Shown here: one piece after another, positions 5,840-44,099 of the stretch
Layout: every line of letters begins with the position of its first letter
Numbering within the stretch: the first letter of the stretch is position 1
Assembly: GCA_025201365.1 (NCBI GenBank)
Contig: JAIXMF010000012.1
Location: forward strand, 434,001 to 498,000
Length of the DNA: 64,000 nt
From: Syncephalis plumigaleata
Taxonomy: Eukaryota; Zoopagomycota; Zoopagomycetes; Zoopagales; Piptocephalidaceae
Direction of reading: 5' to 3'
Translations under genes and position numbers: made by a program
Notes under the pieces: generated by a model
The model's input: only the letters and a program-made list of their open reading frames with translations
What the model was told of the DNA's origin: nothing
The model's database searches: none

Positions 5840-6128
5840 TGAAGCTAATTGTCACATTCTTTATTATTGTTATTACTTTACTAGTAGATAAGAGCAATGT
5901 TTATACATCATTAAACCATAGCACATGCTAATACTTTCTATGAACGGGATGATTGATCGAATAAATCAACTATAGTAGCAATTGAGACATCAAGCTGTAC
6001 AAACTGATGAATGCTTCTTAATGCATAATGGGCGTTGATCTGCAATACATGTACGACATTTAGCAATCTTCTTTGCCTTTGTATTCCTAAAACGAGCATC
6101 CATACTATCTTTCTTATTCCATTCCACT

Positions 6129-7760
6129 ATGTCTACTACTACTACTACTACTACTGAAATATCGAGTAATTCCAACTCGTCTTGTAGATTACTCGATTGT
6201 CTGAATAGTCTTCCATTTCATGACCAGTGTGTCTTTCGTAGTCTACTTGGTCCTATCGAATTATTGCGTCTATCAGCATGTTGTCGCTCATTAACAAGCA
6301 GTATTCGAAATGACTCAGTATTATGGCAAGCACTATACCATAGGGATTTCTTATCAGGAGCTCATTATGTTAAAGAAATGGATTTCGTATTATGGTGTAT
6401 ACGCACGGATGTCAATAATCCATGTACATCGGATAAACGAGCCGATCTACTAGAGAATGTGGACTGGTACAACACATATCGTCGACGAGTGAGCACCGAG
6501 AATAATTGGCGATATGGACGATGCAACACCACGTATATCGATATGGAACCTGACAATGATGGAATAGGTTATCGCAAAGATTATGATGATAACCGCATAT
6601 TTATTACGCAGCAAGATCGTTCAGACGAAACACCAATCCATTGCTATACTTTAGAATATTTGCCGCATTCAAATCTTAGATCAAACAACAGTATTGAATA
6701 TAACAGTACATTCTCCACATCGCCAAATGTTCTTTCGCTAGATATTGGCAATGCAGCTCAGTACCATTATGTTACGGGTGATCATTATATAGCTGTATCT
6801 CCTAAGGAGGTCAAGAGCGATACCAACATCAATGTAAAAATACTTTCTCGCAAACATGGCGGTATTTTCATTACATTCGATATTCCGGTACGATATCGAG
6901 TGAAGACAATTGAGGGGAAATGGGCATTACTAGTGCATGACTCACACGAGCCATCCAAGGGTTCGTCAATTTGTAAGCGTAGTAATTGTACAATGATGAA
7001 ATATAACTAGCACTAATCATTAATGGATTTAGCCGGTATAATGGTATTCGATATAGATAACAGTATCATGTGTCCAGGAAATATTGGTGATACATGGAAT
7101 ACGATTCGTTTCTATAAAACAACCAGCAATACAGCAATAGTATATACGGCAAGAGTAGCCAAGGATGATGATACAGATCGTATTGAATGGACACTATACC
7201 AGTTCTCGAGCAATAATCCTGTTGAAAAATTGCAAAGTGGCTGGTTTCAACTACCTGAGAAGATAACCTATATGTGGCTAGAAACGTATAATTCATACGA
7301 TTCGCATATGATCATCAAATTACACGGCCATTCGGATTATGATCCGTACATAATGCATAGTGTAGCATCCAATGGTCAAAGCCAGGCTCCACGTAATTGC
7401 TACAATATATCTGACCAACATATACCTATTCCATTGTTAAGGGCTGGATACACGTATTTAATATATACTTCCAGACCAGTAAAAATATGGACAGACTTAT
7501 CCTGCAATGATGATCAAGTATTACAAATGCCGGGTACAGCTTTCATCAGCAACCTTATTGGAGATCTCTATATTTTTACTGTAAGAGAGCGTAATCTTAT
7601 AAGTAGCCGATATCTTGTAGACATCAGTACAAAGGAAACAATACGCAAATTGGAAGCACCAAATAAGGGTTGGATGTTGCCCATTCATGTAATGTTTAGT
7701 ACGATATATAGCCCATTTGACAGCCATATGCAAATAATACAAGAATACGGTGAATTATAA
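6129..7760 (+). CDS. F-box-like protein, copy 1 (intact)
   Basis: Exons 6129-6972 and 7033-7760, 523 residues. The N-terminal part after a Thr run (LNSLPFHDQCVFRSLLGP ... LRLSACCRSLTSSI ... LWQALYHRDF) has the spacing and hydrophobic pattern of an F-box, which would dock to Skp1 of an SCF ubiquitin ligase. The remaining 400 residues look like a beta-rich substrate domain that I cannot name. The apparent stop at 7008-7010 lies in a 60-base intron (GTAAGC ... CTAATCATTAATGGATTTAG); the same intron, in the same phase, exists in the second copy at 25257-25316. Paralogous to the decayed copy at 24285-26035. The F-box call is moderate; the paralogy is certain. Confidence 0.7.
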
Positions 7761-12774: not shown

Positions 12775-15700
12775 ATGGCTAACCGGCAGATAACGGTGAC
12801 CTGTAAGTACATAGACATACATACACTGTATGATACATAGAACAGTATACTCGGTGACAAGCTTATTGACGGAACAACGCCATGTATCCTGCTTCCTCAT
12901 CAATTGCAACATCTTCTTAGACGCCGACCCAACGGGGATTTGGCCGCGTATTGAAACTGAATTCAGAAAGCTGTTTCCCTTACGCAATCTATCGTGGCTG
13001 TCCCTACGTGAACAGCGACGCACCATTGATTCGGTTAATATACACTTGGAACCATTTGAGGCGATAAGCCCGCCTGCTACCACACCTGACCTATTGTTGA
13101 ATCGACCATTTCTAAATATTCTATTTGTTCAAGGAGAGGTAAGTGTCGCTATAGCAGAATAGAAGCATAGCTGTAATGATACTCTATTAGGACTTGGAAG
13201 CCTATCGTCAAACGTTAAGACAACAAATCAAGGAATGGCTTGATGTTATTGCCACGCGTAAACCGCAAGAATGGCTTATCGTACACGTGACGGAACAGGA
13301 GACACGTAATAACACATCAAAGTATTTGATGATGAAAACAACGGTCTACGATAAATTGCGTACAGATTTTAATACACGACGTGATAGGTAAAGTATAAGG
13401 CACTGAGAGTAGAAGTGACATTCTATCGAGTGTGTGGTTCTTTTCCCTTTCCTCTCTCATTTACTAATAGTAACTTCCATTATGTTACGCGTATAATACA
13501 TAATGCATACATACATACATAGATGTATTCAAATACGTGCCACCGAGAAAGCACTTACCGATCCATTATGGCAAGAGTTATCCAATCGTATGAAGGAGGG
13601 AATCATGGGTAGTTTCCGACAGCATGTCATTTACAATGAAGACGATGTACGACGACTTGATGCTCAGCGTCAAATGCCCGGATGGAACTATTGCACCTTC
13701 TTCCTAATGAAAGTAAGATGATAAAATGGCAATCAAGCAATGCGTATAAAATAAGCATCAGCATTTACATATAATACATCAATTGAATTAGGAAAATATG
13801 GCGCAAACCTATGAAATGCTAGGATTACACGACGAGGCATTGATGCAATATGACGAGTTGGAAGCATCTTATTTCCTAGTGGAACGAGGTAGCTAACTAG
13901 TAGGATATCAGTGAATAGAACAAGCTAGTAACACGATTGATATTGCTATTAGAGAGTGCATTGGCATGGTTTAGTAGTTTCGGCGGGAAAGATCTAGGCG
14001 ATGACAGTGCTGACATATTCGATAGTAAACGGAAACCGTATCGTACACTAATCCAGGACAATTCCATATCACTATTTGATCTACAAGTTTATATGTTCTC
14101 CCGTCAATGTGAACTATTGCGCCAATTGAATCGAGCACAAGAGTTATGTAATCGAGCCGAGGAGTTTATCACTTCAATGCTACGTATTATACGTCAATTT
14201 CGTGTAAGCAGTTACTATCAATACACACACACACACACACTAAAGAGAAGCATCATTCATTGATTTATTTGTTTATAGGAAAGCTTACCCGATAACTTTG
14301 AGGAGTATTGGGTCTTCTCGGCATGTACACGTGCTGTAGTCAAATATTATGAACTTGTCGGCGAACAAGGAGTCGATGCTAGTGTTCGTAAATCGATCAT
14401 ATCACTTTACTATCTAGCACGTAAACAGGTTAGTAAAAGCGTATTATTGTAATTAGTTAGTAATATCATGCATATACATGTATGTGTATATATAGCTTGA
14501 TCGTTTAGGTATTCGCTATGGATTATTACCGAATAAGCCACCATTCTCCCTTAACATGGATCAAACGACAAAGATTGAAACTAAATCACTTGATCATATG
14601 CTATCAACTATTACTAATGCTGAATTAGCGGAGGCATTCAAATCAACAGAAGATTTCGATCGACTCTACCTTGTAAGTTGTATAAAAGAACAGGAATGCA
14701 TGCATATACACACGATAAGTAATAATGTAACATTATTGATAGACACTTACGGAGAATATTGCCGATGGATATATGGAATTGAAACAGAATAGAATGGCAT
14801 GGCCATTACTATCGGATATTGCTTCATTAGATTTGTAAGTCTAGTAAAACGATTGCTATATGTCATGCTCATTCTAATCATGATGGAATAGATGCCGCGG
14901 ACGTGCCTTCAAGGCCATCGAGGCATTCCACGATTTATGCGATAATTATGGCAATCGAGGCTGGCCACTCATCGAGGGATTCCTACAAAGTCAACTGGCC
15001 GTCTGTCGTAAGGAACTCGAGCAAACAGACGAATATCCTTTTCTTTTCTATTTCCATTTATATGCAGTAATAGTAGTATATCGTTAACTAACTAGGAAAG
15101 TACGTATGCTCAATTATGCTTGCAACTGTTACAAAGACCGAACACATTATGCGAAGAAGATCGTGCTATGTTTACGGAGGATTTCATTAAGCATGCATCG
15201 CATTTGAAAGGTTTGTAAATGCATATACTCATCATTAATGGCTATTATATTCGTCTTTCCTTTCTGTTTATAGAAGCTACTCAATCATTGGCACCTATGT
15301 TTAAACTGAATATACTCGATAAGACAAATGATACTGAGAAGATAGGAATTGAAATATCACTGGATAACACATTAATTCAAGTAGGTATTGATGTAGTCAT
15401 AGTAATATATATATATAGATATAGATATGCTAATTGTATATGATATAGCCATTTACCTATGATCATATTACATTGACTCTTAACGGGGAAAATAACGAGC
15501 GACTATTGCAACTAGTGACCAATGAAGGAACACTAGAACCAGGCATCAATACCATCATATTATACTGCGATGTAAGTATTATATTCATTTCTATTGACGT
15601 ATATCATTAATCATTGTATTGCAATGATGACAGCATGCAGAAACGGGTGACTATACAACAAAGGAACTTGTCATGACCATTGGTGAACTTGAATTCAAGG

Positions 15701-17896
15701 AGAGTTTCGAAGCAGATGCCACTAAGCGTAAAACATTTCGTATTAGTGCACCTGAATCATCACTTACTGCTTCATTGTCATTGGCATTATCCGGTAATGA
15801 TCATGATATATCTCGTAGATTGTAATAATTTATTAATGCTTATTTATACATTGTATATGTGCGTATTCTATTAGAGAATGCTGATACTGCCACACGTTTC
15901 CGTATTGAATTATTCACGCGTAAGCATACCATTGTTAAAGGCGAGGCATCATTGCAAATATCCACAGATGGCGTTGCCTTCTCAACTATTACAGACATGG
16001 AGATTCATAAGACTAAAAGTGATCAAACTACAGGCAAGTAGCTTTATTCATTCATTTATTCATTCTCACCACTATAACTATAATATGTTCATGTATTAGA
16101 ATCAATTCCAATATCGCCTGTAATAAACGAAAAAGTCGAGTTAATCTGTCCATTACCATCCTGTGATAGTAATGAGATATGTGAATGGTTCATACCATTT
16201 GAACATACTCGACTCACTCATAAGGTTAAGGTAAGGAGATCAATAGTGAGATAACTAGTCTTTTAACTTAATGATATTCATCTTGATAGGTTAAACTACT
16301 CATTACCTATACCACACAAGATGATCAATCATTCTCATTTAGCGTGTTGGAAACTATGGATTTCTCAGTACCATTAAGTTTACGTCCAGTTGTTTATTCA
16401 TTAGAGAAACAGTAAGTTGATATGGACATATATGTATGTAAATACTGTTTTACTTACTATTATTATCATTACTACATATAATCAAGTACATTGGTTAAGG
16501 TGGATATTATTTGTGATGGTGCTGTACCCATTCGATTATTATCCTGTAATGCTACTCTCTCAGATGGAATACGTCTATTGAATGAACCACCACCATCTAC
16601 TTATCAATCGGTAAGATTATTATTATTACTGTATTCATTCTAGTTAGTGACATGTACGTATATGTGTAAATACTAGGTTTTATTTGCTCAGTCTAAAACG
16701 GCACTCACTTATCGATTGGATCAAGCGTATTCAGGTAAGTGGAGTGAATTGGATGTATACTCGATTCTATTATAGTAGATACTCATGATTGAATTGATTA
16801 GATACAAGTGCTAATATGACATTACAAGTACGCTTCCGTCTACTGAGTGATGGTAAGTAATGATGCTTATTATTGCTATGAATGTATCATCATCATCATC
16901 ATCATGATTAAACTGTATTACGTTCTATTCCTATGTTTATTTCTGTTTATAGAGGCAGCCATTCATGTGAATGCACTATTAGAGGAAGCATTAGATACGG
17001 CGGGATTATCCCAGTATAAATGGCTAGTAATCGAGCATACACGTAGTCTACTTGACAATTCTGTTATCGATCTCAATTCCATTGGATTGATTGATGCCAT
17101 TAGTACGGAACACTTGAATGCTTCCAGTTATACGCCACTTTTTGTACATGAGAGTGAATCATTACAACGACGTCTAAATGAATGTCTTGGTAATTTCTTT
17201 AAAGTAAGTATCCAAGTAATAACATCATGAATATGATAGCTAATCATCATTACTGTTATTAGGAACATCGACAAATTCCTATTAGACAAACCATTCTAGA
17301 TGATGCAGATACCATGGATCGCTCGCTATTCTGTAATATTACCCTTCCTAATCGTCAAGTAAGTCAATAACATCATTATACATGTATGTAACAATTACTA
17401 ATGACTTGTTATTTAGTTAATTACGAGTGCGGAATTAATACCTGCCTGTCGTGAATTAGTCATCGAAGAATCGTGTGCATGTCGTATTGTTGTCACACAA
17501 ACACGTATCACACCATTGGATACTTCTAATGAGGAATTAATTGAACCAATTAGTACAGAACTTTGTTTCGACTTGGATGGAGGACGTGAACAATGGATAA
17601 TTGCAGGACAGAAGAAATCGCGTTTCACTATGCAGGTAAGAAGTTGATTGATATCAATCATGGAATGACTACTCATTCTATCCTATTTTATTGCATGATA
17701 GCCTGGACAAACGCGAGAGTTCAATGTTACACTAGTGCCTATGAAGACGGGTTTACTTCCTGTACCTGCACTGCGTTTACGCTATTTATCACAAACACCG
17801 AATACTACTGCACCTATTGCGCATGTCAAGAATGTAGTCGGTGTTCTAGTGAAGCCTAAACAGCATGGTGCATCGTTTTTTCTGGACAAATTGTGA
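12775..17896 (+). CDS. TRAPPC10: TRAPP II complex subunit TRAPPC10/Trs130
   Basis: 24 exons close in phase to 1172 residues: 12775-12802, 12846-13138, 13191-13387, 13523-13712, 13792-13888, 13953-14203, 14279-14428, 14496-14672, 14743-14834, 14892-15032, 15104-15210, 15274-15380, 15449-15571, 15634-15793, 15875-16033, 16100-16230, 16290-16411, 16487-16610, 16677-16734, 16802-16852, 16953-17203, 17263-17358, 17417-17635 and 17702-17896. Family segments in order include EWLIVHV, MPGWNYCTFFLMKENM, ALMQYDELEA, LQVYMFSRQCELL, GWPLIEGFLQSQLA and the C-terminal beta-rich part. TRAPPC10 is a scaffold of TRAPP II, an exchange factor acting at the late Golgi. One intron is U12-type AT-AC (15033-15103) and one is GC-AG (16034-16099). 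Tail-to-tail with ACOX. Confidence 0.95.
14222..14241. repeat. (AC)n microsatellite in TRAPPC10 intron
   Basis: Alternating A and C for about 20 bases inside an intron. Confidence 0.9.
15033..15103 (+). other. U12-type AT-AC intron in TRAPPC10
   Basis: The intron starts ATATCCTTTT, a perfect match to the U12 5' splice site (RTATCCTTT), and ends GTAC. A U12 branch-site-like ATCGTTAAC (7 of 9 with TTCCTTAAC) lies about 15 bases before the end. Exon phases close only with these boundaries: GA plus G makes Glu, followed by TAT GCT CAA. The nearby AG at 15095 would put the next exon in a wrong frame. Confidence 0.85.
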
Positions 17897-24284: not shown

Positions 24285-26035
24285 CTTCTTAATGCATAAT
24301 GGGCGTTGATCTGCAATACATGTACGACATTTAGCAATCTTCTTTGCCTTTGTATTCCTAACTGAATAAACGAGCATCCATATGCTTTCTTATTCCATTC
24401 CACTATGTCTACTACTACTATACTACTGAAATATCGAGTAATTCCAACTCGTCTTGTAGATTACTAGTTTGTCTGAATACTCTTCCATTTCATGACCTGC
24501 GTGTCTTCGTAGTCTACTTGGTCATACCGGCTTTTGCGTTTATCAGCATGTTGCACTCGTTAAGAAACAGTATTCGAATGATCAATTATTATGGCAAGCA
24601 CTATATCATAGGGATTTCCTATCAGGAGCCCATTATGCTGAAGAAATGGATTTCGTATTATGGTGTATACGCACGGATGTCAACAATCTATGTACATCGG
24701 ATAAACGGCCGGTCTACTAGAGAATGTGGACTGGTACAACACATATCGTCGACGAGTGAGCACCGAGAATAATTGGCGATATGGACGATGCAATACCACG
24801 TATATCGATATGGAACCTGTGATGATGCATTCATTTCTAATCCGCCTCATGGTAAATATAGTAGACTTATACTCACAACGAAACATGCTCAACACGATGA
24901 AGTAATATCGTTTCGCAATTACGAAATGAGATTTTTACCACATCCTAATCTTAATTACGAAAATAACAAGGAGCAAGAGAATTCGCTCTCCACATCGCCA
25001 AACATTCTATCTTTGAATGATGAGGAATTCGCAAAAAATATCTATTCTCGTACTGATTATTGTTTAATTGCATATCGTCGTTATTTCGAGAAGAATAGCG
25101 ATCGTATCGGGACACTACTTTCGCATAGAGATGGCAAGTCATTTGGTACATTTTGTATTCCAAACCCATATAAAAATATTATGCTCGAAGGGAAATGGAT
25201 GTTATTAAACATAGAATCACGTATTAATGTGGAAGGTATAAATACATATGAAAGAAGTAAGATAAACAGCATTAGAGCTATAGAGAGGTATAGCTAATAC
25301 TAATCATTAATGGATTTAGCCGATATAATGGTGTTGGATATAGAGAATAATACCATGTGTTCGGGAAAGATCGATGATACATGGAGCGTGGTATGTTTCT
25401 ACAAAACAACCAACAATACAGCAGTAGTATACACCGCAAGACTAGTCAAAGATGATAAACATCGCGCTGAATGGGCATTATACCAGTTCTCGAGCAATAA
25501 TCACATTAAACAATTGCGAAATGGCTGGTTTTATCTACCCGACATTCATACGACAGTTTTGCTAAATTGCTATAGCTCATGTAATCTACAAATGCGATTA
25601 CAATTTCATAGCAAGGTTCAGAATTCAGCGTTTATAATGCATAGTGTTGCATCGAGTAGTCAGGATAGTACACCACGAGATTGGCTTTATGTATCTTACG
25701 AATATATGCCAACTTCATTATTGCAAGCCGGTTTCAACTCTCCATTAGTCGGTAAACGGGATGCATATATATGGACGGATACTATATATAGCGTTGATCG
25801 AATGGTGGACATTCCAGATACGACCATGTTACGAAGTGTTATCGGCAACTTGTACCTCGCTACTATCAAACAAAACTCGATGAAATCTACATATCTCGTG
25901 GATATCACTACAGGAGAGAAAATACGCAAATTGGATATGCCAAATATGCCAATAGAAACTCATACGATGATTAGCACGATTAGTGCTCCTATAAATGATA
26001 AGAAATGGATGATACAAGAATATGGAGAAGCTTAG
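24285..26035 (+). pseudogene. F-box-like protein, copy 2 (5' half broken)
   Basis: Positions 24285-24819 are about 90% identical to 6014-6552 (leader plus F-box half of copy 1), but several one- and two-base losses relative to copy 1 break the frame, so no F-box can be translated. From 24820 on, identity to copy 1 drops to roughly half at the protein level, while the frame stays open through 24773-25256 and, after the conserved phase-1 intron (25257-25316), 25317-26035. The last part reads DIMVLDIENNTMCSG, parallel to copy 1. The 3' part could still be translated from an internal ATG. The abrupt change in identity suggests gene conversion or a partial duplication; base-calling errors could explain some of the losses. 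Confidence 0.8.
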
Positions 26036-38595: not shown

Positions 38596-38988
38596 GAACC
38601 TCTCTCTTTCCTCTTTCACATTTGATTGAACTTTGGCAACCTTTTGAAACAAAGAACTAGTCACAGTATTTCTATAAGCTTTCACTATTGTATATACATT
38701 TATTTCAAAATAAAACTCAAACATAATCGCGTTACTTATTGCATATACTGATACAAGAAATTTTCTTTACAACTTCTTTCATTCCTTACGTTTTGTACAT
38801 AAGCCTTGCTTATTTCATTCCTCTCTTCTTTTAATTTCTTATTGTATATACATATATTCAAATTAGTTTCAAACCTTATTGCGTTTTCTTTTTATTACTA
38901 TTGTTCTTTGAACGTCGTTTAAGTTTACAATATCTTATCCTTTAGTTTATTACGTACATCTTTTCTTCAACTGAATCTATTTGTAAGC

Positions 38989-40329
38989 ATGATGTATGCG
39001 GAGAAGGTAAAAAAAGGTGCGAACGTAGCACCCATGACTCATCCATTCCAGCCCACCAATCCTAAACATTCTTCTCAACCTCTGCAATCTAAAAGTGTTT
39101 TGTCATCCCGAGTTGCAGATGCTTCAGCTAATCGTCCTGTTTCACGTAACCCAAATGTGCTCAATTTCAATTTCAGTGGAATCGACATTGATGTGCAGGA
39201 AGTCGCTAACATTTTATCTAAACAATACCCGGAAAGTTTTAGACTTATTCCAATTCGTCGGGCAGGCTTTTATGAGCTCGCTTTTGAATCGGACGTAGAT
39301 CTGGAACAACTCGCTAAACAAGGACTTGTCTACAAAAACCATTCAATACCAGTATCCACTACCTCCAAACCAATGGAAAACTATTTGTTAGTAACCCTTG
39401 AAAACACTCCAATTTTAAGCGAGAAGTCCTTGGCCAAACTATTGGAAACAAAGCTACTTGAATATGGAGAACTTCTAGATTTACGTCTCATGTTTTACCC
39501 TAATACTCACCTTTTAACTTCAAAAGCTTTGGCTTTTTACGACCTGTCCAAGTCGCCGGAAGTAACCAAGCGTCTTCCTAAATTCATCAATTTTGATGCG
39601 TCATCTGATTCACCAATGTTCCTCAGCTGGAAAGGTGCCCCAATTCAATGTTCTAACTGCGAAGCAGTGGGCCACATTCGAGCTAAGTGCCCAAAACTCC
39701 ATCCACAACTAACATCTTTCAACCCAATTTCTCACAACACGTCATCATTCAAGAGACAACGTGACAGCTATGAGAGTATTCATGCTTCTGACAGTAGTAC
39801 ATTATTTTCTTCCAAGCCTAATCTTTCCGAGGTCACACATAAGGTCCCGATGTCTAATTTTAGGTCGCGAGTTCCACAGACACCAAAGGATCGAACTATG
39901 ACTTCTACTATTTCTCTACAAGCCACTCCCCCAGTCCAGGTGAGTGACAATTCCACATCGGAACAACCGATCCCTCCATTATTCACTCCAATAGTGATCT
40001 CATCCTCAGATGATCCTGCCATAGATTTGGAGATGATACAGGAACAGGATGAGAATGAGAAAGTGGAAGCCATTACAAACAGCAAACCCGTCAAACAACC
40101 CATAATAACAACACCCATTAGAAGGTCAGCACGATTACAGGCTAAGTCTGCTGCTAAAAAACCAATTTCTCCTCCTAATCCAACAATTAACGACCCCACT
40201 CAACCTGACGATACCGATATGGATACAGAATCAGATCAGAGTGAGGATGATGCGGTAGATACAAAACATTTATCAATAACGTCGAGCAAAGTCGATAATG
40301 ACTTGTCAGACTCCGTTATGCATGATTAA
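38989..40329 (+). CDS. LINE ORF1, gag-like nucleic-acid-binding protein
   Basis: 446 residues. The N-terminal half (about 60-215) has an RRM-like alternation of strands and helices (VLNFNFSGIDIDVQEVANIL ... YLLVTLENTP). A CCHC zinc knuckle C-x2-C-x4-H-x4-C (CSNCEAVGHIRAKC) lies at about residues 221-234. The C-terminal half is Ser/Pro/Thr-rich with acidic and basic patches and an SARLQAKSAAKK segment. Family knowledge: ORF1 proteins coat LINE RNA and chaperone target-primed reverse transcription. Its TAA stop overlaps the ORF2 ATG by one base (TAATG). Confidence 0.88.
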   Translation: MMYAEKVKKGANVAPMTHPFQPTNPKHSSQPLQSKSVLSSRVADASANRPVSRNPNVLNFNFSGIDIDVQEVANILSKQYPESFRLIPIRRAGFYELAFESDVDLEQLAKQGLVYKNHSIPVSTTSKPMENYLLVTLENTPILSEKSLAKLLETKLLEYGELLDLRLMFYPNTHLLTSKALAFYDLSKSPEVTKRLPKFINFDASSDSPMFLSWKGAPIQCSNCEAVGHIRAKCPKLHPQLTSFNPISHNTSSFKRQRDSYESIHASDSSTLFSSKPNLSEVTHKVPMSNFRSRVPQTPKDRTMTSTISLQATPPVQVSDNSTSEQPIPPLFTPIVISSSDDPAIDLEMIQEQDENEKVEAITNSKPVKQPIITTPIRRSARLQAKSAAKKPISPPNPTINDPTQPDDTDMDTESDQSEDDAVDTKHLSITSSKVDNDLSDSVMHD

Positions 40330-43300
40330 TGATTCAACGTCTCCGTTTTGCAACCCTCAACGTCAACAGATTGAGGGATGAAATCAAACGTAACAACATT
40401 TTAACCTTCATTAAAACTTTCAATCTAGATATTATTGCACTACAAGAAACTAATTTCGACGACCTTGTATGCCAATCCTGGTTTACATCTATGGGATGCA
40501 AGGCAGTCTGTAATAAAAAAGTTGCAATAATAATTTTTAACAATAACATATCCATCACCGATAAAAAACTTATTGACGACCGTGTCATCTCTCTCTCATT
40601 AACGTATCATACATATAATTTCCACTTCACCACAGTTTACGCTCCACCGGCATCTCCAGAAAGAGTTGTCTTTTTCAATAGACGCCTTTCGGAACTCATT
40701 CCCAAACCCAATTCGTTAATTGTAGGCGATTTTAATACTTACAACCAACCTCATCTCGATCAATCTAATAGATCCACTTCATACGGCTGGTCCGCCCTAG
40801 CTCCACAATTGCGACGTTTAAACGTTCACGATTTGTACAGATATCACTATCCCACCGGAACTGACTTCACCTTTAGAAGCTCGAGAAGAGTTGAATCTAG
40901 ACTGGACTATCTATTCACTTCTCAGCAGATGTTATCGATGTGTGAACCACCGGTTATCACTCCTTGTCCATTTTCAGATCACAATATGGTATCTTCAGCG
41001 CTCCTTCTTCCTCAACAACTACCGCATGGCCCAGGATCGTGGCGTTTGGACTTAACCTTACTGTCTGATCAGGAGTTTATTGAATCTGTCACATCCTATT
41101 TGGAGGAAACTCTAACAGCCAACCACACACAACCATTACACGAAATTTGGGATAAAGCTAAGCGTGCTATAATGGACATAGCATGTAAACGCTCCAAATC
41201 TATTCAACATATACGCAAACTTCACAATGAAATTGCTCTAAAAAGATGGATTGATATCAGCAAACGCCCCCCACCATTACGCGACCAGGTCGCGTATCGC
41301 AAATGGGAGGAGGAGAAAGCACGTCTAAAAGAGGTCTACACCAAGTCAATAACGGCCGCTACCACACGAAAACTAAGAGCAAGACGAGATCGATGGTCAG
41401 AGCAAGGTGAACGCCCTACTCGTTATTTCTACAGAATGGTCAAAGCTAAACAAGCCTTCAGTTATATGGAAGGTGTCCAACAATTAGACGGTAGTATAAC
41501 CAATAACACCTCGGAGATGTTGGGCGCTGTACATGATTTCTATGAGCACCTTTATTCAAAAGGTACTACAAATGAATATGCTCAAACAATGTTAATAAGA
41601 GAACTGACAGCTCACCTTTCAGTTTCTCAATCAGCTCATTTAAATGTCCCAATATCAGGTGAGGAAATCATGAACACCATTCAACATCTAGCTAGATGGA
41701 AAGCGCCAGGAATGGATGGCCTTCCAGCTGAATTCTATCGTACTTTTAACAACTTAATTGTGCCTTTCTTCGAGAAAATGCTTGCGGAATGTTTAGCAAT
41801 TAAAGCTCTCCCAACATCATTTGGTCAATCACGTATCATTTTATTATACAAGAAAGGGGATCATCTTAATCTGGCCAACTGGAGACCAATTTCACTCATG
41901 AACACAGATGCAAAAATCGTTACCAAAATACTCACCTCTCGATTACAACTTCATTTTCCCTCCATCATTTCACCAGCTCAAACTGGTTTCGTTCGTAATC
42001 GCTCCATTTTCGATAATATCTGGTCTTTAGAGCATACCCTGGAAGCAGGCCTTCTACACAATCGTACTGGTTTTTTGTCTTTCCTAGATCAAGAAAAGGC
42101 ATACGATAGAGTGGACCACGAATATCTTCTCAAGATCCTCTCGGCAATAGGTATTCACGGTGCCTGGCGAGATTGGATTGACCTATTCTATAGCAACTTA
42201 TCAGCAGTAGTTACTGTTAACGGCTTCATGTCTTGTCCATTTAAACTTACTCGAGGATTACGACAAGGCGACCCACTGTCACCGTTGTTATACAACCTTG
42301 TGATAGAACCGTTGATCCTATATTTCCAATCCAACATTCGAGGATGGCAATTCGATAATTTCACCTTCCGCGCAATGGCGTACGCAGACGACATGGTAGT
42401 AGCCACGGCCGACCAGGATGATGTGCGCACCTTGCAAAAAGGCCTTTTCCTTCACCAAAAAGCTAGCGATGCAAAAATCAATGAACACAAGTCCCTCACT
42501 CTAACCCTCCCGAACACACCAGGCACGATACCTTTCACCTCTCAACGATGGGACGAGCCGTTTAGATACCTAGGCATTTATTTCGCCAAGGGTAAAATTG
42601 CTATCGACCATCAGCAACAACTCATTCTAAACTCAGCTGCTAAACGTATCGACTCATGGCGAGAACGAGATTTATCCATCAAAGGTAGAATCCTCCTACT
42701 CAACTCTTTCATTCTCTCTAAATTCTGGTTTGCATCACATGTCGCTGCTCCGAGCAGCACTACAATACCAGCGTTACTTTCAATGATGCGCTCCTTTATT
42801 TGGCGAGGTGGAAAAGCCAGAGTATCGCTAAGACAGATAATGCAACCAATGATTCAAGGAGGTCTTGGCCTTTTGCCACCAATTATACAAGCCCAATGTC
42901 TGCTCACTAAATGGTTCAAAAGAGTTTTCGAGCCGTCAGCCCCTCCCTGGAGCTACCTGGCTAGAGATCTACTACAACAAACTCTATCTAAGGCAGGTTT
43001 TCAACCATACGCCTTTCTCCTCAACTCGTTCTACAAGTGCCGTCTCGATAACAGATTATCTTCTCCTTGGAGTGATAAACTGTTAGCCTGGTCAGCAATT
43101 GGTGGTTCGATTCAACCTGACATTACAAAACTCGATCCTCAAACTATACTAGCCCTACCTATTGAATGTATAATGACAACAGATAAAGGTAAACCAATTA
43201 AGGTAGGTGCCTTGGCTCAAAGATATAATGTCACATCAATGTCAGATCTCTTCACTTGGAACGAATCCTATAATCAATATTACATAAATTCTTCATCATC

Positions 43301-44099
43301 TCCTTTCCATAAGTATATTGCAAAACGACTCAGGAACAGAAAACTTTTAATTCCTCAGAACATCAAAGAGAGATTCGTTGAAGCAGGCAAACAACCTCCT
43401 CTTAAATGGCAAGACGCAATCCACAAACTACTCATTGTTAACGCGCAGCCAATCGAGTCTTTTACCGCTAACCTCAGTAGGAAGTCAATCCAATCTTTAA
43501 AAGCTACTCATCATTCGACTATTGATCCATCGGTAGATCCCAAGCAATTATGGAAACGTATATCCAATCCAGCAATCACACCAAAACTCCAATCCTTCAT
43601 GTGGCTACTCAACAATAAAGGAATTTGGAGTGGAGTGGAAGTGTCCAAGTGGGCTAACGCTACTGTTCCTTGTACACGTTGTCATCAGCCCGTAGAAACT
43701 CTAGAGCATTCATTTTGGTCGTGTCCTCCGGTTCAGCAGTTCTGGACGAACATGCTAACACGATTGTCTACTACTCCGTCAGCAGACTTCAACTGGAAAT
43801 CAATTGTTACCCTTTCTTATAATTTACATTCTGACAAAGCCAACATTACTAACCATATATCTATCATTAGCGCGCTGTGGGCCATATATAGTACCCGTAT
43901 AGCCAGCATCTACAATAACAAACCGTCTGATCACCAACATATATATAACTCATGGTCCTACACATTACAGAATATTATACGGGCAAAATATCGCACAGCT
44001 TTAACGCTTTCGTCCACTTCGACATTTCGTCGTAAGTGGCAATGGTTAGGTGATGCTTTAAATGTAAATTTTCACTCCCCATTATCGACTGATGGATAA
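40329..44099 (+). CDS. LINE ORF2, endonuclease and reverse transcriptase
   Basis: 1256 residues, open throughout. The APE-type endonuclease occupies the first about 225 residues: LNVNRLR, ALQETNF, GDFNTY (about 133) and SDHNMV (about 216). The reverse transcriptase follows with KAPGMDGLPAEF, RPISLMNTDAKI, FLDQEKAYDRVDH, RGLRQGDPLSPLLYN and the catalytic AYADDMVVA (about 684-692). Near the C-terminus CTRCHQPVETLEHSFWSC (about 1114-1131) is the zf-RVT-type zinc-binding motif. I see no RNase H domain. All catalytic residues I can check are present, so the element may be active. Translation probably depends on reinitiation at the TAATG overlap with ORF1. Confidence 0.95.
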   Translation: MIQRLRFATLNVNRLRDEIKRNNILTFIKTFNLDIIALQETNFDDLVCQSWFTSMGCKAVCNKKVAIIIFNNNISITDKKLIDDRVISLSLTYHTYNFHFTTVYAPPASPERVVFFNRRLSELIPKPNSLIVGDFNTYNQPHLDQSNRSTSYGWSALAPQLRRLNVHDLYRYHYPTGTDFTFRSSRRVESRLDYLFTSQQMLSMCEPPVITPCPFSDHNMVSSALLLPQQLPHGPGSWRLDLTLLSDQEFIESVTSYLEETLTANHTQPLHEIWDKAKRAIMDIACKRSKSIQHIRKLHNEIALKRWIDISKRPPPLRDQVAYRKWEEEKARLKEVYTKSITAATTRKLRARRDRWSEQGERPTRYFYRMVKAKQAFSYMEGVQQLDGSITNNTSEMLGAVHDFYEHLYSKGTTNEYAQTMLIRELTAHLSVSQSAHLNVPISGEEIMNTIQHLARWKAPGMDGLPAEFYRTFNNLIVPFFEKMLAECLAIKALPTSFGQSRIILLYKKGDHLNLANWRPISLMNTDAKIVTKILTSRLQLHFPSIISPAQTGFVRNRSIFDNIWSLEHTLEAGLLHNRTGFLSFLDQEKAYDRVDHEYLLKILSAIGIHGAWRDWIDLFYSNLSAVVTVNGFMSCPFKLTRGLRQGDPLSPLLYNLVIEPLILYFQSNIRGWQFDNFTFRAMAYADDMVVATADQDDVRTLQKGLFLHQKASDAKINEHKSLTLTLPNTPGTIPFTSQRWDEPFRYLGIYFAKGKIAIDHQQQLILNSAAKRIDSWRERDLSIKGRILLLNSFILSKFWFASHVAAPSSTTIPALLSMMRSFIWRGGKARVSLRQIMQPMIQGGLGLLPPIIQAQCLLTKWFKRVFEPSAPPWSYLARDLLQQTLSKAGFQPYAFLLNSFYKCRLDNRLSSPWSDKLLAWSAIGGSIQPDITKLDPQTILALPIECIMTTDKGKPIKVGALAQRYNVTSMSDLFTWNESYNQYYINSSSSPFHKYIAKRLRNRKLLIPQNIKERFVEAGKQPPLKWQDAIHKLLIVNAQPIESFTANLSRKSIQSLKATHHSTIDPSVDPKQLWKRISNPAITPKLQSFMWLLNNKGIWSGVEVSKWANATVPCTRCHQPVETLEHSFWSCPPVQQFWTNMLTRLSTTPSADFNWKSIVTLSYNLHSDKANITNHISIISALWAIYSTRIASIYNNKPSDHQHIYNSWSYTLQNIIRAKYRTALTLSSTSTFRRKWQWLGDALNVNFHSPLSTDG

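Follow-up and report, generated by a model that had tools for sequence, protein, structure and literature searches.

A probable U12-type AT-AC intron in the TRAPPC10 gene of Syncephalis plumigaleata and minor-spliceosome components in its genome

AT-AC termini occur in both U2-type and U12-type introns, and an intron that bears them raises the question of which spliceosome removes it. This question arose in the TRAPPC10 gene of the fungus Syncephalis plumigaleata, within a 64,000-nucleotide stretch of contig JAIXMF010000012.1 (the window). A sequence-only reading had proposed that the gene retains a U12-type AT-AC intron, that a minor spliceosome works in this organism and that its lineage diverged early. 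The analysis indicates that intron 10 of TRAPPC10 truly belongs to the U12-type AT-AC class and that a working minor spliceosome removes it, a reading to which we assign a probability of about 0.95 and for which transcription, assembly and splicing are what we infer. The proposed lineage was borne out, as S. plumigaleata belongs to the Zoopagomycota (Zoopagales) and not to the Dikarya.

The gene occupies positions 12775..17896 of the window on the plus strand. A hand-built spliced model, supported by homologs, comprises 24 exons, the number claimed beforehand, and 23 introns, namely 21 GT-AG introns, one GC-AG intron (16034-16099, plus strand) and one AT-AC intron. The automatic gene finder, which admitted GT-AG introns of 35-159 nt only, had put false introns in several exons, and these were corrected by hand. 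The resulting model is open throughout and encodes 1172 amino acids, with homologs called TRAPPC10 or alike. Both public Syncephalis TRAPPC10 proteins read MxxRQxTVTYADPT near the start; the end of intron 1 is therefore more likely at 12920 than at 12845, which would yield 1147 amino acids (counted by eye) rather than 1172. This leaves the AT-AC finding unaffected, and the residue numbers given here follow the 1172-residue model, in which intron 1 ends at 12845.

The branch site of U12-type introns follows the consensus TTCCTTAAC and lies near the 3' end of the intron. Read directly from the letters, the intron at 15033..15103 (plus strand) is 71 nt long, lies in phase 2 and has the form ATATCCTTTT...ATATCGTTAACTAACTAGGAAAGTAC. 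Its branch site, ATCGTTAAC (15080..15088), differs from the consensus at two positions and is of the U12 type, with TTAAC exact at 15084-15088. The distance from the C of ATCGTTAAC to the last intron base is 15 nt, and the terminal AC (15102..15103) belongs to a GTAC at 15100-15103; all of these letters are exactly as the sequence-only reading had described them. A helix of ATCGTTAAC with the GUAAGGA of U12 holds one mismatch by eye, and the predicted U12 duplex energy did not separate the TRAPPC10 branch site (-8.1) from the consensus (-8.2). The 5' splice site, ATATCCTTTT (15033..15042), agrees with the U12-type rule RTATCCTT quoted in PMC2846911. The predicted duplex of this site reaches -9.1 kcal/mol with the U6atac of the genome and -6.2 with its U11.

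The motif by itself is only suggestive. The loose pattern ATATCCTT-N28..58-TTAAC-N9..20-AC matched once in the window, with 0.10 matches expected and at least one match in 8 of 100 shuffles, and the 9-mer RTATCCTTT on its own would be expected 1.77 times. The intron call rests on place and not on the motif alone, as the cut falls where the frame needs one and the joined protein is homologous. Exon 10 (14892..15032) ends by coding CRKELEQTD followed by GA, the first two bases of the next codon, and exon 11 (15104..15210) starts G|TATGCT, which completes GAG (E) and continues with YAQLCLQLL. The removal of 15033-15103 therefore gives TDEYAQLCLQLL, with the junction TDE|YAQLCLQLL. U12-type introns end in AT-AC or GT-AG, and here the ends are AT...AC, the frame is restored and homology extends over the junction.

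The homology was assessed with 117 of the 164 proteins found. These comprised 71 near homologs (P0003-P0074 without P0035; Mucoromycota sensu lato and Basidiobolus) and 46 distant ones (P0075-P0120). Residues 530-547 aligned without gap or insertion in 62 of the 71 near homologs and in 22 of the 46 distant ones, and a Pfam search of the junction peptide placed no domain over the junction. Whether other fungi share the intron position was also considered, since a first alignment showed apparent breaks close to the junction in several public homologs. The idea of a shared position was dropped because deletions of at least 8 residues touching residue 539 were present in just 3 of the 71 near homologs, no more than elsewhere in the protein. 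The public TRAPPC10 protein of S. fuscata (P0002) is garbled immediately ahead of this junction and continues normally from YAQLCLKLL, as though a non-canonical intron had been overlooked in that gene model as well.

The claim that phase closure demands exactly these boundaries did not hold. Between 14920 and 15200, 75 of 347 GT-AG, GC-AG or AT-AC pairs of at least 35 nt keep the frame open. The alternative frame-keeping pairs add or remove residues, and the closest of them, a GC-AG pair at 15021-15100, makes the protein three residues shorter and has a poor 5' site, GCAAAC. A shorter GT-AG pair of 29 nt (15067-15095, plus strand) also keeps the frame open, and it supplies the best-surviving rival explanation, in which the major spliceosome removes these 29 nt and the AT-AC match is due to chance. 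This pair is implied by the best homolog, the public S. plumigaleata protein BDF22DRAFT_692769 (96% identical), and was deduced from that protein alone; its excision reproduces exactly the public reading, with the insert YPFLFYFHLYAEST of 14 extra residues. However, the insert is confined to this one protein (P0001). Insertions of at least 6 residues at its position were found in 0 of the 71 near homologs and in 3 of the 46 distant ones (7, 23 and 7 residues, at 532-536). An intron of 29 nt would also be far shorter than the remaining TRAPPC10 introns, which measure at least 43 nt in the scripted model or at least 52 nt if intron 1 ends at 12920. In addition, TAACTAAC would end 3 nt ahead of the last base of such an intron, and a perfect U12-type 5' site would be ignored although the genome has U11 and U6atac. 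We therefore regard this rival as very improbable, and the public protein probably misreads the AT-AC intron. Removal of the AT-AC intron by the major (U2-type) spliceosome is conceivable from its termini, which are known from both classes, but is still less probable, as the 5' site is ATATCCTTTT and not ATAAGT-like, TTAAC lies at a U12-type distance from the intron end and minor snRNAs are present in the genome.

The U12-type reading of the intron also draws on the minor-spliceosome components of the genome. The sequence-only reading had made the case depend on such components being found, and the alternative of none anywhere in the genome does not apply: U11, U6atac, a U12 candidate below its cut-off and an ortholog of the 65K protein are present. 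The search of the assembly for the four snRNAs thus succeeded for U11 and U6atac, gave a candidate for U12 and did not find U4atac.

U6atac was located at C1:977157-977339 (minus strand) with 33.7 bits, which passes the cut-off of 33 by only 0.7, and it carries AAAGGAGAGA. The U6atac model exceeded this cut-off in none of 14 control genomes, and the major U6 scored 21.4 bits on it and 77.9 on its own model. Folding of U6atac gave a z-score of -1.64 relative to shuffles. U11, at 1501-1698 of locus L075 (contig C329, minus strand), scored 53.7 bits against a cut-off of 39 in a search of the complete locus; the faster scan of the whole genome gave it only 35.7. Its 5' end reads AUAAAGG, and it contains an Sm-like AUAAUUUUUUGG.

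The U12 candidates are two loci (L019 and L020, on C373 and C290) with scores of 27.4 and 22.8 bits, both below the Rfam cut-off of 53. Both carry UUAAUGAGUAAGGAUAUAAC, with a 5' half close to the consensus and a 3' part that misfits the model, and the 27.4-bit candidate carries AUGAGUAAGGAUAUAAC. U12 did not fold more stably than its shuffles (z -0.81). The two copies differ at one position in the first 150 bases from GTCTTAATT and have unrelated upstream flanks; by their look, they are therefore dispersed copies and not alleles. The copy on C290 has no near upstream element, is preceded by a poly-A run and is perhaps a retrocopy. For U4atac, the Rfam search of the genome gave at best 22.4 bits against a cut-off of 53, and a pattern for the U6atac complement gave two matches against three in the backward control, which is not above chance.

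Genes for snRNAs have a proximal element upstream, to which those of the U6 type add a TATA box. The upstream layout in Syncephalis resembles this arrangement. The motif ATCCCAT, chosen after inspection of the upstream regions, lies at -76 (U11), -67 (U6atac), -62 (U6) and -56 (U12 on C373), with 0.008 occurrences expected per 100 nt, while in the C290 copy of U12 it lies at -174 only. The element ATCCCATAATWTGATCAT is common to the upstream regions of U11 and U6atac. TATATA is found at -30 (U6atac) and -35 (U6) and is absent upstream of U11; the U12 gene on C373 has TTAAAT at -29.

The ortholog of the U11/U12-65K protein, assigned by homology, was found at L080 on C223 (minus strand). The gene was the second of six matches to the C-terminal RRM of human 65K (E 0.015), is 100% identical to a public S. 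plumigaleata protein and, after two Syncephalis proteins, has as its best match the Rhizophagus 65 kDa protein (E 3.6e-47). Compared with U11/U12-65K (RNPC3), it has the same N-terminal RRM and PKLYTQVLHLMNKMNLPPPF block, but the C-terminal RRM is absent. Among 22 proteins hand-picked from the 120 matches listed, the C-terminal RRM is present in 15 (two animals, Zea, Achlya, chytrid-like fungi, Glomeromycotina (Rhizophagus) and two Rhizopus models) and absent from seven: S. plumigaleata, for which the DNA was examined, and S. fuscata, two Basidiobolus, two Absidia and Gongronella, for which the public proteins alone were used. When four C-terminal RRMs were compared by tblastn with 7.5 kb that covers the 65K gene's surroundings and downstream side, no match was better than E 8.5; this is a weak search, as even the N-terminal RRM of the gene itself escaped it. 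A further search returned nine proteins that carry a 65K-type C-terminal RRM among only 39 candidates, which says nothing about loss.

A CHHC-type zinc finger is also found in TRM13, and the CHHC zinc finger LYCPFNLGHFVPRHVFAKHCWRC at L009/L010 scored 20 bits, just under the U11-48K cut-off of 21.1; of the two proteins that the sequence-only reading had proposed to look for, 65K has an ortholog and 48K a candidate below its cut-off. The search for CENATAC (CCDC84) gave no match in the genome, and it also matched nothing in any control.

A second copy of the intron is found at C165:16814-16884. It differs from the window copy by two substitutions, at 15051 and 15078, both outside the 5' site, ATCGTTAAC and AC. 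Between the two TRAPPC10 copies, 27 differences fall among 3519 exon sites and 35 among 1581 intron sites, and the C165 copy is taken as the other haplotype. The exon differences amount to 23 synonymous and 4 non-synonymous codon changes in 1173 codons, without indel, and the TRAPPC10 protein is therefore under constraint. This constraint, together with the unchanged intron motifs, makes it most improbable that the intron is a relic no longer efficiently spliced, with TRAPPC10 not properly made, even though U4atac and CENATAC were among the parts of the minor spliceosome not found.

With the U12-type reading, the removal of the intron would proceed as follows. U11, through its 5' end AUAAAGG, and then U6atac, through AAAGGAGAGA, would pair with the 5' site AUAUCCUUU. 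U12 (GUAAGGA) would pair with UCGUUAAC, leaving the branch adenosine bulged, and 65K would link U11 and U12. Cleavage at |AT and AC| would then join GA to G, so that TRAPPC10 stays in frame.

Introns of the same type were sought across the genome. The strict GT-AG pattern GTATCCTTT...CTTAAC...AG gave 24 matches against 0 in the backward control, the strict AT-AC pattern gave 29 against 5 and a looser AT-AC pattern gave 105 against 70. Grouping near-identical strict matches by eye left 19 distinct GT-AG and 18 distinct AT-AC cases. The TRAPPC10 intron falls outside the strict set because of ATCGTTAAC, and further real introns are therefore missed too. TATCGTTAAC is present in three further AT-AC pattern matches. 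Some matches were rejected: at least one strict AT-AC group (C43/C46/C281) does not resemble an intron, and several loose AT-AC matches, L031, L036 and L040 among them, are clearly no introns.

U12-type models were built at 53 of 54 fetched loci, of which 43 are distinct (24 AT-AC and 19 GT-AG). Forced models performed better than those with ends shifted by 1-2 at 18 of the 24 AT-AC and 16 of the 19 GT-AG distinct loci, although this is a weak test. Twenty of the 43 junction peptides, picked after reading the peptides and with TRAPPC10 among the 10 AT-AC cases, were sent to Pfam, and a domain spans the junction in 11 of them. Five are AT-AC junctions (L021 importin, L027 molybdopterin-binding, L028 XPG, L035 FH2 and L038 CRM1) and six are GT-AG junctions, again out of 10 (L051 VPS35, L055 nucleotidyl transferase, L057 RPB5, L063 THO2, L064 AMP deaminase and L074 HIT). 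The 19 GT-AG loci have phases 0/1/2 in the numbers 2/10/7, which is like the minor-intron bias of 1 > 2 > 0 given in PMC10639083. The 24 AT-AC loci, chance matches included, showed no bias (7/8/9). The AT-AC share among the strict matches is about one half; this is above the 26% given for human minor introns (PMC10639083) and like that of Phycomyces, where the AT-AC/GT-AG counts are 9/8 by one method and 8/12 by the other (PMC2846911).

Fungi that combine a minor spliceosome with U12-type introns are a known kind. The Syncephalis intron is like the U12-type AT-AC introns of human, plants, Phycomyces and Rhizopus in its RTATCCTT, its TTAAC near the 3' end, its terminal AC and its shortness, and differs in having ATCGTTAAC where those have CCTTAAC. 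Minor introns have been published for Rhizopus and Phycomyces (PMC2846911) and for Rhizophagus and Basidiobolus (PMC10639083). The last source gives 0.554% (n=249) for Basidiobolus meristosporus, also of the Zoopagomycota, and 0.272% (n=205) for Rhizophagus irregularis, and Syncephalis is, like these two, an early-diverging fungus that keeps minor introns. Syncephalis is not named in the main text of PMC10639083 and may stand in its supplement. In the open-licence full-text literature, we found no report on the Syncephalis minor spliceosome and none on the U11/U12-65K of fungi with a minor spliceosome. As far as the literature searched shows, the results make the Zoopagomycotina a further fungal group in which a minor spliceosome is supported by evidence, and they give concrete gene addresses for U11, U12, U6atac and 65K. 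Since the public protein probably misreads the AT-AC intron, surveys based on annotation may undercount such introns.

The part that may be new is the 65K without its second RRM. In the human protein, this C-terminal domain binds U12 and U6atac, each at its 3' stem-loop (PMC11039992). The Syncephalis protein raises the question of how U11 and U12 are linked without the contact used in human cells. A tentative answer, which we consider somewhat doubtful, is a zoopagomycete minor spliceosome of altered design, in which 65K lost its C-terminal RRM, U12 (with its misfitting 3' part) and U6atac diverged with it, the U11/U12 bridge is made differently and a sizeable set of minor introns was kept. 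The human U6atac 3' hairpin has a loop containing UACUU. The best-folding 3' hairpin of the Syncephalis U6atac has the loop CAUUGA, which does not contain UACUU. However, the U12 candidate has UGUAUUUG close to its 3' end, which is similar to the human loop and counts against an altered design, as does the fact that the RRM loss outside Syncephalis rests on public gene models. A pronounced loss of minor introns in the zoopagomycote ancestor was inferred in PMC10639083; an altered design, if true, would argue against such a heavy loss.

Other features of the window were noted by eye. Two adjoining long ORFs at 38923-44099 (plus strand) resemble a zinc-knuckle protein and an endonuclease/reverse transcriptase from a LINE-type retrotransposon. 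Two similar ORF pairs (SLMDLAxIMVxDI...), at 6039-7760 and 24773-26035 on the plus strand, represent a putative duplicated gene family.
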